A stretch of DNA of 60,650 nucleotides. Origin: Terriglobia bacterium. Lineage in GTDB: Bacteria; Acidobacteriota; Terriglobia; 20CM-2-55-15. Positions 1-53,505 of this stretch are shown piece after piece; within the stretch, counting starts at the first letter, position 1; every line of letters begins with the position of its first letter. A program made the translations under genes and the position numbers. The notes beneath the pieces were generated by a model. It was not told the origin of the DNA. It worked only from the letters and a program-made list of their open reading frames with translations, and did not search any database. The stretch lies in NCBI GenBank assembly GCA_036496425.1, contig DASXLG010000250.1, positions 1-60,650 on the forward strand. The letters run 5' to 3'.

Positions 1-382
1 AAACTCTTTGGCTTACCGCGCGGGGTAAGGCAGAGACTTTGAAACTCTCTGGCTTGCCGCGCGAGGTAAGGCAGAGACTTTAAAACTCTTTGGCTTACCG
101 CGCGAGGTAAGGCAGAGACTTTAAAACTCTCTGGCTTACCGTGCGGGGTAAAGCAGAGACTTTAAAACTCTCTGGCTTACCGCGCGAGGTAAGGCAGAGA
201 CTTTGAAACTCTCTGGCTTACCGTGCGAGGTAAGGCAGAGACTTTGAAACTCTCTGGCTTACCGTGCGAGGTAAGGCAGAGACTTTGAAACTCTCTGGCT
301 TACCGTGCGAGGTAAAGCAGAGACTTTGAAACTCTCTGGCTTACCGCGCGAGGTAAGGCAGAGAAATTAAAACTCTCTGGCT
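1..382. repeat. 41-bp tandem repeat array of hairpin-forming units
   Basis: Nine complete 41-bp units run from base 1 to 369, and a tenth stops after 13 bases. The array begins at the window edge, so its real length is unknown. Each unit is an imperfect inverted repeat: CTCTGGCTTACC faces GGTAAGGCAGAG across a six-base loop, a 12-bp stem with one mismatch. Differences between units are mostly in the loop (GCGCGG, GCGCGA, GTGCGG, GTGCGA). There are no variable spacers, so this is not CRISPR. 41 is not a multiple of three, so a protein repeat is unlikely. Confidence 0.95.
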
Positions 383-680: not shown

Positions 681-768
681 TACTATCCGCAGATCGTGCA
701 ACCCTGTGATGAAGGTGTAATCCGATCATTGCCGGCGGCAACTCCTTGTTCCGCCGCAGTTGCGCCGT
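681..768 (+). repeat. 88-bp segment duplicated at 9944-10031 (copy 1)
   Basis: This segment covers the 5' edge and first 24 codons of the MFS gene. It matches 9944-10031 at all but six of 88 positions. Three of the five differences inside the reading frame are synonymous, and both copies can be read as the same peptide start, MQPCDEGVIRSLPAA. See copy 2 for the broken version. Confidence 0.9.
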
Positions 769-2258
769 GGATTCTGGCGGCGACGATTCTTGGATCGAGT
801 CTGGCGTTTATCGACAGCAGCGTCGTCAACCTTGCGCTGCCGGCGTTGCAAGCGGATCTAAACGCGACAGTGGTCGATGCGCAATGGGTCGTGGAGGCTT
901 ACGCTCTTCTCCTGGCTGCGCTGATTTTGGCCGGAGGATCGCTGGGCGACATTTACGGCCGCAGGCGCACATACGCCGCCGGCGTCGTCCTGTTCGCCGC
1001 CTCGTCTGTCTGGTGTGGGCTCGCGCCGAATATCCATCAGTTGATTGTTTTACGGGCGTTGCAAGGGATCGGCGCCGCGCTGCTCATACCAGGAAGTCTC
1101 TCGATTATCAGTGCCTCCTTCGATGATCGCGATCGAGGCCGGGCTATCGGTACATGGTCGGGGTTTACGTCGATTGCCGCTGCAGTGGGGCCGGTTCTCG
1201 GCGGCTTCCTGATCGAATACGGCTCATGGCGGTGGGTGTTTTTCATCAATGTTCCGATCGCCGCAGTCGTTCTGATCCTGACGTTCTTGCATGTACCGGA
1301 AAGCCGGAACCCTCGCGCGGCCCCCAGGCCCGACTGGGTGGGCGTCGGCCTTGCGGCTGCCGGACTCGGCGGCCTCACATACGCACTGATCGAATCGTCG
1401 CAACGAGGTTGGATGGACCCGGCGGTGAAGACTGCCCTTTTGGCAAGCGTGTTGGCGCTGGCCGCGTTCGTCGTCGTCCAGGCGAAGAGCAAGGCGCCGT
1501 TGCTTCCGCTCGCGTTGTTTCGGTCGCACACTTTCAGAGGGGCGAATCTGCTGACTCTGCTTCTGTATAGCGCACTGAACGGCCTGCTCTTCTTTTTTCC
1601 TCTGAATCTGATTCAGGTTCAGGGCTACTCCGCGACGGCGGCAGGCGCCTCGATGCTGCCGTTCATCCTGTTGATGTTTCTTTTGTCGCGGTGGTCGGGC
1701 GGACTGGTCCATCGCTACGGGCCCAAGCGACCGCTTGTATTCGGCCCGGCCGTGGTGGCACTCGGATTTGCCCTTTTCGCCGTTCCGTCAATCGGTGGTA
1801 ATTATTGGACGACGTTCTTTCCAGCGGTCGTCACGCTTGGCCTCGGAATGGCGATAAGCGTCGCGCCGCTTACCACCACGGTCATGAATTCCGTTCCTCA
1901 GGAGTTCGCCGGCACCGCGTCGGGAATCAACAATGCGGTTTCACGGCTTGCCGGAGTGCTCTCGATCGCAGCATTTGGCATCATTATGCTTGCGAGTTTC
2001 GACCAGCATCTCTCCTCCCGTTTGGCGGGAATGAATCTGGGGCCGCAACTCCAGGGAGAAATCGGAAATCAGCGCGTGAAACTCGCGGCCATCGAAATCT
2101 CTCAACGGATCGATAAGACATTGGCAGCTGAAATCCGGAGATCAATTGATGATTCATTTGTGGCTGGTTTCCGTCTTGTCATGATCATTGCGTCGGGATT
2201 GGCCATCTTGAGCGCGGTAGCCGCGGCTTTAATGATCGACGGTAAATCCGAACGTTGA
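696..2258 (+). CDS. MFS transporter, DHA2 (EmrB/QacA) drug exporter family
   Basis: A 520-residue polytopic inner-membrane protein, likely a proton-driven exporter of toxic compounds. The first membrane segment with the DHA2-typical region DSSVVNLALPAL lies at about residues 27-55. The MFS loop motif GGSLGDIYGRRR follows near 80-91, and a GxxxGPxLGG-type motif near 160-170. The length and hydrophobic pattern fit a 14-helix transporter. The listed start is GTG at 696 and is uncertain: about 25 non-conserved residues precede the first helix, and that leader is duplicated downstream of the SDR gene. The gene stands alone, with no membrane-fusion partner nearby. Substrate unknown. Confidence 0.85.
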   Translation: MQPCDEGVIRSLPAATPCSAAVAPWILAATILGSSLAFIDSSVVNLALPALQADLNATVVDAQWVVEAYALLLAALILAGGSLGDIYGRRRTYAAGVVLFAASSVWCGLAPNIHQLIVLRALQGIGAALLIPGSLSIISASFDDRDRGRAIGTWSGFTSIAAAVGPVLGGFLIEYGSWRWVFFINVPIAAVVLILTFLHVPESRNPRAAPRPDWVGVGLAAAGLGGLTYALIESSQRGWMDPAVKTALLASVLALAAFVVVQAKSKAPLLPLALFRSHTFRGANLLTLLLYSALNGLLFFFPLNLIQVQGYSATAAGASMLPFILLMFLLSRWSGGLVHRYGPKRPLVFGPAVVALGFALFAVPSIGGNYWTTFFPAVVTLGLGMAISVAPLTTTVMNSVPQEFAGTASGINNAVSRLAGVLSIAAFGIIMLASFDQHLSSRLAGMNLGPQLQGEIGNQRVKLAAIEISQRIDKTLAAEIRRSIDDSFVAGFRLVMIIASGLAILSAVAAALMIDGKSER

Positions 2259-4892: not shown

Positions 4893-4988
4893 TTTAGCCG
4901 CAGATGACGCGGATTACGCAGATGGGGGCGCATTCTAAGTCGTCTTCTTACGCCCCCATCTGCGTAATCCGCGTCATCTGCGGCTAAA
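4893..4988. repeat. palindromic repeat, family A, perfect 38-bp arms
   Basis: The arms at 4893-4930 and 4951-4988 are exact reverse complements, separated by 20 bases. The outer arm sequence TTTAGCCGCAGATGACGC is the same as at 3307-3390. It lies between convergent genes, so a bidirectional transcript-end role is possible. Confidence 0.9.
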
Positions 4989-9943: not shown

Positions 9944-10031
9944 TAGTATCCGCAGATCGTGCAACCCTGTGATGAAGGTGTAATCCGGTCATTGCCCGCG
10001 GCAGCTCCTTGTTCCGCCGCTGCTGCGCCGT
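9944..10031 (+). pseudogene. copy 2 of the 88-bp MFS-start segment (broken leader)
   Basis: A repeat of 681-768 placed directly after the SDR stop. Read in the same frame it begins MQPCDEGVIRSLPAAAPCSAAAAPY and then meets TGA, so only the leader peptide of the exporter is present. Two amino-acid changes and three silent ones separate the copies within the frame. It is most simply the remnant of a second exporter copy or of a duplication that moved the exporter's 5' end. Confidence 0.7.
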
Positions 10032-14996: not shown

Positions 14997-16724
14997 CTAG
15001 TTCTTTAAGTAGTTTCGCCAGCCGCCGAAGCGTGTGATTTCCTGCGCAGAGGCCAATCCTGCCTGCTCGCAGATGAAGCCCTTGAGGACGCTGCCGTCTT
15101 CAAGCGTGATGCTGCCGATTCCCAGCGGCGCGGGAATTGCGGCGACGAAACTGCCAAATGTGTTTTCAGGAATGGCCCAGACTTCGACTTCGATGCCGGA
15201 GCCCGAAAATTCGGGGTCGCGGACGAGGCCGGGTTTCGGTGGAGTGGTTTCCAGAGCGTATAGCCGGTATTCGGGAGAGGTGCGGCACGTTCGAATCAAA
15301 CGTGCTCCTCGATCGGTGAGCTGGTAATTCAAAGGTTGGCCCGTCAGGTGGGCGCCCGCCACAGCGACAGGAACGCATCCGGGCGCTGTATCCGCTTTCG
15401 CGATTTCCCCGAGATACCGGCCGGAAAGTTGCAGTAACGCTCCATCCGTAAATGCCGGGCCGATGAAGGATACCCCGAAGGGCAACCCATCGCGCCGGAA
15501 GCCCGCCGGAACGGCGATCGCCGCGAGATCCATCAGGTTAACGAAGTTCGTGTAAAAACCCAGGTTGGAATTTGACCGGACCGGATCGGCGAGCACCGCT
15601 TCCAACCGATAGATGGTTCCGGCTGTCGGAAGCAGCATGATGTCCATCTCGGACCATTGGGCGGCGGCGCGCTGCTTGAGCGCTTCGAGCTGGTAGGCGC
15701 TCTTGTAGGCATCAGCCGCGGAGTACTTCATTCCACCGAGGATGATGTTTTTCACGATCTCGTTTACGCCCTCGGAATGCATCTGCAAAAACTCGCCGAC
15801 GGCCGCGAAGCGCTCTGCGACCCATGGCCCGGCGTACAACAATTCGGCAGCCTCGCGGAACACCGAGTAGTCGATCGTGACAGCGGTACCTCCCATGCTC
15901 TCGAGTTTCTCGATCGCTTTCCGAAACAGCAAAGGCGTCTCGCTGTCACCGAAGAACTTCAACTGCGATTCTTCCGGAACTCCGAATCGGAAAGCTCCGG
16001 TCAACCATGGCGCGGCAGCCGCGCCGGGTGGGAACGCGCGCGAATATGGGTCGCCGGCATCGAAGCCCTTGGCGGCTTTCCATATGGTTTCCGCATCCGC
16101 GGCCGTTCGCGCGAATATCGAAACGCAGTCGAGCGAACGGCAGGCGGGCACGACACCACTGGCGCTCAGCAATCCACGGCTCGGTTTCAGTCCGATCAGG
16201 TTATTGAATGCGGCCGGAACGCGGCCGGACCCCGCCGTATCCGTGCCCAGAGAGAAAGCGCACAAGCCTTTAGCGACGGCGACCGCGGAGCCGGAACTCG
16301 ATCCCCCCGAGATGTATCTGGAATCGTAGACGCTCGAGCATGCACCGTACGGCGACCGCACGCCCACGAGGCCGGTGGCAAACTGGTCCATGTTGGTCTT
16401 GCCGATCAGTATGGCTCCAGCATCGATCAGCCTCTGGACGACAAATGCAGAATGGTCCGGTTCATACGCGAATGACGGGCAGCCGGCAGTGGTGGCCATT
16501 CCGGCCACATCGAAGTTGTCTTTAACGGCGAACGGAACCCCGCCGAGCGGCAGTCGGACATCAATGGACGCCGCGCGCTGGACGGCATCTTTTTCGTTTA
16601 CAAGCGATATCCAGACCGGTCGTTCACCCTCGGAGCGGATGCGGCTGTAGACTTCCTCGATGACACGAACAGGCGTGGTTTTCCCGGACCGGTAGCCTTC
16701 GCGCAAGTTCTCGATCGTCGTCAT
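14997..16724 (-). CDS. atzF: allophanate hydrolase
   Basis: A 575-residue amidase that cleaves allophanate to ammonia and CO2, the last step of ATP-dependent urea (or carboxyguanidine-derived) nitrogen release. The amidase-signature core spans about residues 20-440. VKDNFDVAG supplies the catalytic Lys, and ISGGSSSGSAVAVA the cis-Ser/Ser pair. The C-terminal domain (about 460-575), with VAVAGAHLTGQPLNYQL and GWRNYLKN, is the extension characteristic of AtzF. It starts three bases after the carboxylase stop, as the last gene of the operon. Confidence 0.93.
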   Translation of the reverse strand: MTTIENLREGYRSGKTTPVRVIEEVYSRIRSEGERPVWISLVNEKDAVQRAASIDVRLPLGGVPFAVKDNFDVAGMATTAGCPSFAYEPDHSAFVVQRLIDAGAILIGKTNMDQFATGLVGVRSPYGACSSVYDSRYISGGSSSGSAVAVAKGLCAFSLGTDTAGSGRVPAAFNNLIGLKPSRGLLSASGVVPACRSLDCVSIFARTAADAETIWKAAKGFDAGDPYSRAFPPGAAAAPWLTGAFRFGVPEESQLKFFGDSETPLLFRKAIEKLESMGGTAVTIDYSVFREAAELLYAGPWVAERFAAVGEFLQMHSEGVNEIVKNIILGGMKYSAADAYKSAYQLEALKQRAAAQWSEMDIMLLPTAGTIYRLEAVLADPVRSNSNLGFYTNFVNLMDLAAIAVPAGFRRDGLPFGVSFIGPAFTDGALLQLSGRYLGEIAKADTAPGCVPVAVAGAHLTGQPLNYQLTDRGARLIRTCRTSPEYRLYALETTPPKPGLVRDPEFSGSGIEVEVWAIPENTFGSFVAAIPAPLGIGSITLEDGSVLKGFICEQAGLASAQEITRFGGWRNYLKN

Positions 16725-16727
16725 GGG

Positions 16728-19700
16728 TCACCCGTGAAGCCGGAGCGTCGCCAGATTCTGCCCGGCCATTACCATTCCACCGCGCGCGCAGTGGACGCCT
16801 TCGACCACGCCGTTGGCGGGAGCGACGACCACGAACTCCATCTTCATCGCTTCCAGCACGAACACTCTTTCACCTGCGCCGACCCGCTGTCCTGGCTCCA
16901 CTGCAACCTGCCACACGCTTGCCGTCATCGGCGAACGCACGGCTTCACATCCATCCGGAATATCCGCTGTAACCGGCGGCACGTCATCGTTCGATCGATC
17001 GACAAATTCCGGCTGTCCCGCCATTGCCCAGCGCTCTCGTTCCGCCAGAAATGCTGCCTGCTGGCGCGCTTTGAATCTGGCCGCGTCCGATGATGTCTTC
17101 TCGATGAATTGATGATACTTCTTCAGATTGAAGTCCGTGTGCTCGATCTTCAACGAATATTTGCCGTGAGGAAACGCGTCACGAATTTCGAGCAACTCCT
17201 GCGCAGACACAGGGAAGAAACGGATCTGATCGAAGAACCGCAGCAGCCACGGCGTTCCGGGAGTGAACTCGGCTGTACTTCGATGCGTATTCCACATCTG
17301 AACGGTGCGGCCCACAAACTGATAGCCGCCGGGTCCTTCCATTCCATAAACACACAGATAGGCTCCGCCGATGCCGACGGAATTCTCGGCGGTCCAGGTC
17401 CGCGCGGGATTGTATTTCGTCGTCACCAGGCGATGCCGCGGATCGAGCGGAGTAGCAACCGGCGCGCCGAGATAAACGTCTCCCAGGCCGAGGACAAGAT
17501 AGTTCGCGTTGTACACGATATGACTTACGTCTTCGATCGTATCGAGTCCGTTGATGCGCCGGATGAATTCGATATTGCTCGGACACCATGGCGCGTCGGG
17601 ACGGACAGACTGCATGTATTTGTGGATTGCGAGTTGGGTTGCCGGATCGTCCCATGACAGCGGCAGATGCACGGTCCGCGTGGGCAGCGTTACATTATCG
17701 AGATCGGGCAGGGCTCCTTCACATGCTTCAAGACATGCGATCAATTCCTCACGGCGGAGAATGGCGCTGTCGTAATGAACCTGCAACGACCGGATACCGG
17801 GCGTGATGTCGATGATGCCGCGAAGATATTGCTGCCGCAGAATGCGCTCGAGTTGATGGATGCGAAAACGGAGATTCAAATCGAGAACATTAGGACCGGC
17901 CTCGATGAGCAGGTAACGATCGCCGGATGCGCGGTAGACGGTGCCGCGATTCTGATGCAGGACGCACGGTTCGGTTTCAGAAATGCGGTAGAAGCGGACC
18001 GTGTCCCCCGGCCGCAGCTGGCCTAATTTCCAGAGTTCGTCTTCGACAATGACAACCGGGCATACGAAGCCGCCGAGACTTGGACCGTCCGGGCCGAGCA
18101 GGACCGGCATATCGCCTGTAAAATCCATCGCGCCGATCGCATAGGCGTTGTCATGAATGTTTGAAGGATGGAGTCCCGCTTCACCGCCATCTCTGCGCGC
18201 CCATTTGGGTCGTGGGCCGATCAGCCGCACTCCCGTCCGGTCCGAGTTGTGATGGACTTTCCAGGAGGTGCGGAAAATCGTTTCGATGTCTTCTTCCGTG
18301 AAGAAGTCAGGCGCGCCGTGCGGCCCATACATTACACCGATTTCCCATTCGTGACCGTAACGGGGAATGGGGAATAGAGGGGGGGCGCACACCTGATTTC
18401 CTGAACTGCGGAATTCAGGTGTGCGCCCCCCCTCTGTTCCCCATCGAATCATGTCTCCGGTTCGGAGTGTCCGGCCCGCGTGGCCGCCGAACTTGCCAAG
18501 AATAAAGGTGGACCAGCTTCCGAGATAGACCGGAACATCAATGCCGCCTCGAACGGCGATATAGGTACGCGAGCCCTCCGCTGCGGCGTTGAGACGCAAG
18601 ATTGCCCCCGCATTTACGTCGACGGCTTGCCATAACGGAATCGCTTTCCCATCGAGCCGCGCGCTCATGTCCGCACCTGTAATTGCGATCACCGCATCCG
18701 AGTGGAAACGGATCGCCGGTCCGGTCATCGTGCACTCGAGCGCCGCCGCCGATTCCGGATTTCCGACGAGGCTGTTCGCGACCCGGAACGCCAGCGAATC
18801 CATCGGTCCCGAGGGCGGCACGCCGACGTGCCAGTACCCGAGACGGCCGGGAAAATCCTGCACGGTTGTCTGCATCCCGGGCTCGACGATTTCCATCGCG
18901 CGAGGTTGATAGGTCACTCGGCTCAGAAAGCTTGTGGGATAGCCGCCGATAGAGAACTCGGGGTCGGCAATGACGGTGCGAAGGTAGTCGAGATTCGTTT
19001 CTATCCCGTCGAATCGCGTGACGGACAGGGCGCCCATCAGTTGCTTCACAGCCTCATCGCGGGTTCCGGCGTGAACGATAATCTTCGCCAGCATGGGATC
19101 GTAGAAGGGAGTGACTTCGGTTCCATTCTCAACCCAGGTTTCGCACCGTGCGTCTGCCGGCAACAGCACATTCATCAAAGTGCCCGTGCTCGGGCGGAAC
19201 GCGTGCGCCGGATCTTCCGCATAGATACGTACCTGGATGGATGCGCCATGCGATGCAGGCCGGATCTCCTGGAGTGAACGAAGCTCTCTGCACCCGAGGC
19301 GGACCATCCACTCGACCAGATCCACGCCCGTAACCTCTTCCGTAACGGCATGCTCTACCTGCAGGCGGGTGTTCACTTCCAGGAACGAAAACTCTTCGCG
19401 ATCGGAATCGTACAGAAATTCCACCGTGCCCGCCGAGCGATACTGCAAAGCCGCAGTCAGCCGTTCCGCCATCCCCCAAAGCCGGCGGCGGATTTCATCG
19501 CGCAGATGGGCTGCGGGCGTTTCCTCGACCACCTTCTGGTTACGGCGTTGCGCCGAGCAATCGCGTTCTCCGAGCGCAATGACATTCCCGTTTCCATCGC
19601 CGAAAATCTGTACTTCAATATGCCGGGCTCTCTCGACGTAGCGTTCCAGGTAGACTCCGGCCTGGCCGAAGTTCGCGGCTCCGAGACGTGAAACGGACGC

Positions 19701-25847: not shown

Positions 25848-25974
25848 AAGGGAATGCACCACAAGAAGCCTATTGCATCATTGCATCATCGGAAATTTCG
25901 CAGTTCTAAATTTGAAATGCAGAAACCTCTGATGATGCAATGGTGCAATAGACTTCTTGTGCTTCCTTTCCCTT
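25848..25974. repeat. large imperfect inverted repeat (arms of about 43 bp)
   Basis: The left arm 25848-25890 contains CACAAGAAGCCTATTGCATC, and the right arm 25931-25974 is its near complement. The loop between them also contains matching words (AAATTTCGCAG against CTGCATTTCAAATTT). It lies between the phosphatase stop and the transporter operon, on a path where a terminator is needed. The CACAAGAAG word recurs in the repeat at 53400-53505. Confidence 0.8.
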
Positions 25975-29340: not shown

Positions 29341-29394
29341 TCAAACAGGTTAAACCAGGAGCGGAACTCATGTCACTGGGATCAACAGGGTGAG

Positions 29395-29472
29395 CGACCC
29401 CCTGCCCGGCTTGCGTCGGGCTGTCCCCCTTTATAAGGGGGACAGTGCGACGCGAAGCATGGCAGGGGGCCG
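29395..29472. repeat. palindromic repeat, family C (CCCCCTGCC...GGCAGGGGG)
   Basis: Arms of about 37 bases meet at a TCCCCCTTTATAAGGGGGA centre. The outer parts (CCCCCTGCCCGGCTTGCGTC and GCGACGCGAAGCATGGCAG) are imperfect complements. It lies between the peptidase gene and the small secreted protein. It could be a transcription-end structure or a MITE-like palindrome. No other copy was noticed in this window. Confidence 0.75.
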
Positions 29473-29492
29473 CTCATACGCCATGTCGAAAA

Positions 29493-46924: not shown

Positions 46925-46935
46925 CCCTTGTAAAC

Positions 46936-46987
46936 GGGGCGCACACCTGAATTCCCGAATCGATTCGGGAATTCGGGTGTGCGCCCC
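46936..46987. repeat. palindromic repeat, family B, stand-alone copy
   Basis: 26-base arms (46936-46961 and 46962-46987) meet without a loop and differ at one position. The outer sequence GGGGCGCACACCTGAATT is the same as in the element inside the carboxylase gene (18367-18444). It lies between convergent genes and could end both transcripts. Confidence 0.88.
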
Positions 46988-47001
46988 ATTTTCCGACACA
47001 C

Positions 47002-47652
47002 CTACACGCACATGCAGGTCGCCGAGTCTGTCCAGTCCGTCCAGCCGAGTTTGCCTAACGCGCGAACTTGAAACGCGTAGAGCGTGCCCGGTGTCAGACC
47101 ATCGATACCGGCGGGCGGCTTGACCCCCGGCATCGCCGTGCTCGTCCATGAACTCGGCGGGGCGCCGTTAACCACCGAGCCGTAACGGATTTCGTAGCTC
47201 TTAGCCCTTGTGACTTTCTGGACCTGAACGACGATTTTCCCGCTGACAGCGCCGTGGTAGACGCTCGTGATGACCGGCAGAGGCAACGGCGCCGGTGGAG
47301 TTTTGGCTGTCGAAGCCGCCAGGAACCCGCTGGTCGCGAAAGCCGTCATGTCGCCATCCGATGTGATTTCAACATAACGTCCCAGCAACCGCAGCTTCTT
47401 GATAACGGCTTCCCGTTGCTTGTTCTTCTGGGCAATCACCCTTTTACTTCCATCGAGCGCCTCGGCCATCAGCGCCGAGAGACTGTCGATATCCGTTTTG
47501 AGGACTGCCAGATCGACCGGCGGATTCGGGAATTTCGAATTGCCGGTCATTCCGGTCTGAATGGCCGTCCCACGCACGACGATGCCGGTGTCGGACATGC
47601 CACTGTAACCTTCGAGTGGTTTGATACTTGGTGTTTTCATTTTCTTGGACAT
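47002..47652 (-). CDS. fibronectin type III-like protein of unknown function
   Basis: About 216 residues from ATG 47652, which has AAAGGAA eight bases upstream; ATG 47658 is also possible. The N-terminal half (to about residue 100) is helical and charged, with TDIDSLSALMAEALDGSKR and KNKQREAVIKKLRLLGRYVE. The C-terminal half (about 118-216) has the strand order and the GLTPGTLYAFQVRALGKLGWTDWTDS signature of a fibronectin type III domain. No signal peptide. A similar layout is seen in some phage/contractile-system-linked bacterial proteins, but nothing nearby supports that here. Confidence 0.62.
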   Translation of the reverse strand: MSKKMKTPSIKPLEGYSGMSDTGIVVRGTAIQTGMTGNSKFPNPPVDLAVLKTDIDSLSALMAEALDGSKRVIAQKNKQREAVIKKLRLLGRYVEITSDGDMTAFATSGFLAASTAKTPPAPLPLPVITSVYHGAVSGKIVVQVQKVTRAKSYEIRYGSVVNGAPPSSWTSTAMPGVKPPAGIDGLTPGTLYAFQVRALGKLGWTDWTDSATCMCV

Positions 47653-47841
47653 TTTCATTTTCCTTTCTTTAATTGTTAACGGTTTTGGGAAGAGCCCCAT
47701 CCAGCAGTGGCTGGAGGATTTCTTGCCCGCCTTTCATACGCGCGGAATAATTGCAATCGCATTGCCACACAGCGGATTCAATAACCTAACCTGCCTTTTC
47801 AGACACATACGTAGGATTTGCTGCGGTAATCCGGCGATTTT

Positions 47842-47879: not shown

Positions 47880-47900
47880 GGAGGGGAGGCCAACCGCTGA

Positions 47901-48280
47901 GATCGGAAACAGGAACTCCGGATTGCAATCTGATGTCGCAGATCCGACTCTGTACGCCCTGAAGTCAACCTGGGCGTTCAGATCGCGTTCTGAAGCGTGT
48001 GAAATCGTACGGCGCGCACCCATTCCAATCTGACACCTCAAATCAGAAACAGGAGTTCCGGACTGCGACCTGACGCCGCGGATTCGATTCCGAGCGCTCT
48101 GCATTCGATCCGAGCGCGCAGGTCGCGTTCTGAGGAGTCTGAAATCGATCTACGCGCTCAGCTTGCTATCTGGCGCCTAAGCTTGGAAACAGGAGTTCCG
48201 GATTGCGATCTGACGTCACTGGTCGAATTCTGCGCGCTCTGAATTCAATTTCTTTGCGCAGATCGGTGCTCGCGGGCAGT
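47901..48280. repeat. nested tandem repeat: 20-bp monomers in a 140-bp (7-monomer) period
   Basis: From 47901 the DNA divides into 20-base monomers of the general form GATTGCGATCTGACGCGCTC, 19 in all. Every seventh monomer is most alike: GAAACAGGA-type monomers start at 47901, 48041 and 48181, and the next six match in order. The 140-bp super-repeat is present about 2.7 times. Neither 20 nor 140 is divisible by three, and all frames are interrupted, so it is not a protein repeat. Divergence between monomers suggests it is old or selected as DNA. Confidence 0.9.
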
Positions 48281-53399: not shown

Positions 53400-53505
53400 G
53401 GAACACAAGAAGCACAATAATAGAGGCTGCGCGCTATCGCGCTTGCGCTCCGCAAGCACAAGAAAGGGCTGCCCTTTCTTGTGCTTTTTGTGCTTCTTGT
53501 GTTCC
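53400..53505. repeat. nested inverted repeat with CACAAGAAG arms
   Basis: The outer arms GGAACACAAGAAGCACA (53400-53416) and its exact complement (53489-53505) enclose an inner hairpin, GCACAAGAAAGGGC facing GCCCTTTCTTGTGC. The stretch between htrA and the ligase gene is almost entirely repeat. The right side supplies no good T-run. Shares the CACAAGAAG word with 25848-25974. Confidence 0.85.

Follow-up and report, generated by a model that had tools for sequence, protein, structure and literature searches.

The window analyzed here, a stretch of 60,650 nucleotides, is the entire contig C250 of a 6.16 Mb genome in 407 contigs, whose 16S gene starts with GATCCTGGCTCAGAATC, which we take to be an Acidobacteriota signature. 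Its first 382 positions consist of a short palindromic unit repeated head to tail. We asked what such an array is, whether it has counterparts elsewhere in the genome and its relatives, and what could keep its geometry constant.

An array of 41-bp palindromic units

The window contains the following features:

1-382, unstranded: 41-bp tandem array (family A) at the contig start, 9.3 units, from TRF and the unit list
383-728, unstranded: 3' flank from the array to the MFS transporter gene, with no fn3 remnant
729-2258, plus strand: MFS_1 transporter, the next gene, starting 347 bp from the array (Pfam PF07690, gene prediction)
47002-47700, minus strand: copy of the fn3-domain gene family; the degenerate array lies upstream, 195 bp from the gene start
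47895-48255, unstranded: degenerate second array of the same geometric class and unrelated sequence, with lags of 20, 40, 60, 80, 100 and 120

For positions 1-382, TRF reported a period of 41 with 9.3 copies, 93% matches and zero indels. The unit alignment agreed, bearing out the 41-bp tandem array of hairpins with a conserved mismatch described in an earlier note on this DNA. Each family A unit consists of TCTCTGGCTTACC, a loop (NNNNNN), GGTAAGGCAGAGA and a 9-bp spacer, and in the window the stems start at positions 5, 46, 87, 128, 169, 210, 251, 292 and 333. The stem comprises 12 pairs, including one G.G mismatch at pair 7, and the loop measures 6 nt. A CRISPR-type array, which needs non-repetitive spacers, was rejected since the 9-bp spacers of family A are nearly identical within each array.

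The window also carries an 88-bp direct duplication (681-768 and 9944-10031, 93% identical), whose first copy overlaps the beginning of the MFS gene. Near-perfect intergenic palindromes of 33–127 bp lie at 4893-4988, 18367-18444, 25848-25974, 29391-29476, 46932-46991 and 53454-53486; the one at 25848-25974 also occurs on C330 and on C362; the palindromes at 18367 and 46932 are alike. REP-like and other palindromes of this genome are separate from the arrays.

The family A unit is present at nine further loci in the genome (C35, C143, C113, C330, C353, C253, C321, C362 and C265), in arrays of about 4 to 11 copies each. At seven of the ten loci the array is no more than about 142 bp away from a contig end, and the earlier note had allowed for an assembly artefact at such a place. 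This is excluded by the arrays at C330, C353 and C362, which are internal to their contigs, so the assembly breaks at family A arrays and does not invent them. The search of related genomes proposed in the same note was fruitful in the source genome, where it gave the nine additional loci, and came back empty in ten relatives (five congeners and five other genomes of the same family). Beyond the family, about 85,000 species were scanned with the exact stem pattern; the single stray match, in the unrelated Firmicute Pseudoflavonifractor, was taken as chance, and the exact unit pattern gave zero matches in viral contigs. Spread of family A via phages or other species was rejected on these two results.

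Variation among the 70 units of the ten loci was highest in the loop (0.87 bits), followed by the spacer (0.65) and the two arms (0.21 and 0.22), and the G.G mismatch at pair 7 was kept in 68 units. The earlier claim that changes concentrate in the loop and leave the arms matched therefore stood for the loop and only partly for the arms, where the changes are uncompensated. Out of 80 changed arm cells, 53 break the pair and 27 turn it into G.T when read on the plus strand, with 47 and 33, respectively, on the other strand; given this similar split, neither strand is favoured as RNA. The check for compensatory changes thus went against paired arms, with zero double-compensated pairs in the 70 units. 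Arm changes within the window yield either G.T wobbles or C.A mismatches, and in the other array families described below compensatory changes remained at or near chance level. So the arms of family A are alike through common descent or as sequence, not via maintained pairing. Most loci have the loop GCGGGA, which is inverted at C362 (TCCCGC and relatives), and intermediate spacers mark the array edges (the window has AAATTAAAAC there and C35 has AGTTAAAAC); both features point to local copying and homogenisation.

Unrelated arrays with the same period and symmetry

We read 869 kb of DNA, about 14% of the genome, in contigs that are non-random and were partly picked for family A. A lag scan of this DNA returned 16 regions at a lag of 41, 16 at 82, 16 at 123 and 14 at 164, and at most 3 regions at every other lag. 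In addition to family A, the following arrays were found:

C253:3512-3825: family B array
C15:15692-16063: family C array
C362, near 16530-16674: family D array
C20:41211-41690: family E array
C135:5052-5467: family F array, with a period of 123 (3 x 41)
C150:1172-1605: family G array, with a period of 82 also
C180: family H array, with a period of 40
C308 and C80: arrays E2 and F2, respectively, added by later array searches

The genome has at least five further families that are unrelated to family A in sequence and have the same 41-bp period and dyad symmetry. Circular comparison of the consensus units separated six mutually unrelated groups (A; B; C; D/E/E2; F/F2; G), with no alignability beyond chance among them. 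In every family tested, the best dyad phase matched 0.57–0.80 of pairs compared with 0.20–0.25 for other phases, and the consensus was more palindromic than shuffles in all families tested but H. Sub-periods of 20/21 bp were seen directly in several families, as were higher-order repeats of 82, 123, 205 and 245 bp. Families other than A occupy one or a few loci each.

A tandem palindrome array has two dyad centres per period, which are here 20.5 bp apart, near two helical turns. The remark in the earlier note that 41 bp is close to four DNA turns gains weight from the wider set of arrays, as spacing by whole helical turns is kept independently of sequence: six unrelated families have a period of exactly 41 bp, and the samples of congeners gave periods of 40–42 bp (42 in G003, 40/42 in G004 and 21/41, with the half period, in G005). 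None of the array families tested is common to the congeners, and the 41-bp class was not found in samples of three genomes from other genera of the same family. A search of the available literature returned no paper describing a 41-bp palindromic array class in Acidobacteria. Judging from these comparisons, our best reading is that family A would be one family of genus-specific, intergenic, satellite-like arrays that are defined by geometry and free to vary in sequence. As a separate observation, the G004 contig with the 42-bp array carries two inverted matches to the Acido-Lenti-1 RNA (L118:1613-1658 and 1751-1796).

Siting of the arrays and the fn3-domain gene family

With genes called by a home-made hexamer model, none of 17 arrays overlapped a predicted gene, in DNA that is 90% coding. 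A coding repeat was rejected for this reason and because a 41-bp period shifts the frame at each unit. Terminators were likewise rejected; the genes on either side of an array may be convergent, tandem or divergent, and the window spacer, CTTTGAAAC, has no T-run at the hairpin, hence a terminator reading is not general. Several arrays have neighbouring genes (L098:5645-6202, L015:4013-4579, L124:791-1006 and L153:2138-2791) that belong to the Uma2, DUF433 and AHJR-like nuclease families, which are frequent in accessory DNA.

Most arrays other than those of family A are linked to the upstream regions of a single gene family. Its proteins measure about 213 aa, with a conserved N-terminal part and a C-terminal fn3 domain (Pfam PF00041); structure prediction of the window member, run without alignment, was poor (mean pLDDT 53). 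About 50 copies are present in the genome (53 matched stretches, a few of which are pieces of one gene) and about 25, 8, 7, 2 and 0 in the five congeners. The five genomes from other genera of the same taxonomic family have no copy, a phylum sample contained generic fn3 domains only, and no such protein was found in plasmids, phages or viral contigs.

An array lies within 350 bp upstream of five of the six intact fn3 genes contained in DNA fetched for other reasons, the window copy with its degenerate array among them, and the distance from array to gene start in these five copies ranges from 114 to 251 bp. Of the 777 remaining genes, 7 have an array in such a position (Fisher P = 2e-9). A sixth fn3 gene with an array, F2, was fetched because of its array. 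No array accompanies one fn3 copy of this genome, on C15, or the only copy that could be read in congener G004. The Y1_Tnp gene of C15, discussed below, is divergent beside the array-less C15 copy (L059:12938-13813) and lies about 2 kb from the family C array, with one gene between.

Arrays D and E are related, and their promoter regions are 86% and their genes 85% identical, with a promoter-like sequence common to both between array and gene; array and fn3 gene thus appear to travel together. Array F has lost its gene and is thus an orphan, although the fn3 promoter region is still present in its flank (91% identical to F2 over 92 bp). Array H adjoins the apparent last codons of an fn3 gene, by our reading of the sequence a C-terminal remnant. 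No fn3 neighbour or remnant was found at family A in the loci read.

Explanations for a constant geometry

We tentatively favour, with a probability of roughly 0.4, the explanation that the arrays are helically phased dyad sites for a putative DNA-binding protein, placed upstream of promoters. Units would multiply and homogenise locally through slippage or unequal recombination, and their geometry would be kept because the putative protein, acting upstream of the promoter, would use dyad sites in helical phase. Family A would then be a branch dispersed to about ten sites without an fn3 gene. Phased dyad sites read by such a protein would explain the pitch, the symmetry and the siting of the arrays. 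Iteron- and centromere-type arrays are phased binding sites in which repeats are spaced by whole helical turns, and the spacing seen here, about 20–22 or 41 bp, is of the same kind. In contrast to those systems, the arrays in the loci read are not beside replication or partition genes, and their sequence differs from array to array. We counted against phased sites the variable distance between array and gene, the fn3 copies without an array, family A without fn3 genes, and the absence of sequence conservation, which is unusual for a protein-binding site.

We gave nearly equal weight to a function-free origin, with the arrays as palindromic minisatellites that are either selfish or neutral. Starting from a dyad seed that promotes lagging-strand fold-back and slippage, arrays would be born, homogenised and lost with no function involved, and the period would reflect the geometry of the slippage machinery. 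Such minisatellites would explain the symmetry, the turnover, the higher-order repeats and the unconserved sequence. The species-private families are consistent with this, as are the degenerate units and intermediate spacers at array ends, the inverted loop of family A, the lack of compensatory changes and the folding back of the array strand as a whole. VNTR/MIRU-type minisatellites are also intergenic tandem repeats, of 40–100 bp, yet the present arrays stand apart in that families of unrelated sequence have a single period and dyad symmetry in common. Taken alone, minisatellites leave unexplained both the one exact period of six unrelated families and the association with one gene family. 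Phased sites and minisatellites may be compatible, with arrays born by slippage and retained when their geometry serves.

It is improbable that the arrays descend from REP/RAYT-type mobile palindromes that a Y1 transposase moved and that then underwent tandem amplification. REP, BIME and REPIN elements are short intergenic palindromes tagged with GTAG and CGTC, they resemble family A in being present in many copies, and some REP clusters are reiterated in tandem (PMC3733652). The ten dispersed family A copies and the presence of one RAYT-like gene, a Y1_Tnp (C15:13160-13498) that is the only such transposase found in the genome, would fit this origin. However, GTAG, CTAC, CGTC and GACG are all absent from the family A consensus unit, the stem has no adjacent GTAG or CGTC, and family A is absent from C15, the contig carrying the transposase. 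The arrays are also strictly head to tail with a fixed 41-bp period, belong to many unrelated families within this one genome, those other than A confined to one or a few loci each, and are linked to the fn3 gene family and not to the Y1 transposase. Pneumococcal BOX elements offer another likeness, as their tandem boxB modules are stem-loops of variable copy number near genes (PMC3049150). Unlike BOX, the arrays have no boxA/boxC-like flanking modules common to all loci, the flanks of family A being common to subsets of loci only.

A transcribed RNA of tandem hairpins, acting as scaffold, decoy or stabiliser, seems more improbable still. Isolated family A units do form hairpins, folding better than shuffles (z about -2.3 to -2.9), and the RNA of the array is much more folded than shuffles (z -17). 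When the whole array is taken as one strand, however, the minimum-energy RNA fold consists of long fold-backs across units, on both strands. Together with the missing covariation, the conserved mismatch and the lack of an Rfam match at gathering scores at the family A array, this preference weakens the RNA scaffold put forward in the earlier note, and a structured non-coding RNA is disfavoured on the same evidence. Furthermore, the promoter-like motif in the fn3 loci is downstream of the array, which would place the array outside the fn3 transcript.

The least probable explanation is that the arrays are a landing platform for a transposable element. At C143 (L010:1-141), the end of a multicopy element, TGTAACGC..., immediately adjoins the family A array, and the same end is found at C346 and C332 (139 bp, 100% identical) and at C136 (57 bp). 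At C113 (L011:1-141) and C330, diverged relatives terminate the array at different positions within the unit, and a relative in congener G003 is 84% identical. Such junctions were seen at only 3 of the 10 family A loci and at none of the other families, and being a target explains neither the period nor the symmetry. Two other elements were noted on family A contigs. A dispersed repeat, GCAGACGGGGCGGTTAGTAANTTCCATCAA, is present on C143 (L010, near 690-720) and at 19 other places in the DNA read, with over 20 matches genome-wide, and is unrelated to the arrays; C362 carries group II intron Rfam matches (RF02001, RF01998 and RF00029; L016:2046-3832, minus strand).

Returning to phased dyad sites, a bolder form of this explanation is conceivable, although we consider it doubtful. 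Most promoters of the fn3 family, with its ~50 paralogs, would carry private arrays in which the pitch (about four turns) and the symmetry are conserved, and not the sequence. Such an array would be a geometry-only cis element that a protein sensitive to structure or phase might read, and it could break loose as dispersed satellites, of which the array at positions 1-382 would be one.

Bacterial intergenic repeats are usually recognised and classed by sequence, and repeat searches that rely on sequence would miss the present class of arrays. Period and symmetry are common to at least six unrelated sequences of this genome, and one expanded gene family has many of the arrays in front of its members, which suggests that geometry, not letters, is kept. 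The arrays thereby provide a testable case of either selection on DNA geometry or a fixed-stride amplification mechanism, and they draw attention to a family of about 50 fn3-domain genes, so far uncharacterised, in a little-known genus of Acidobacteriota.
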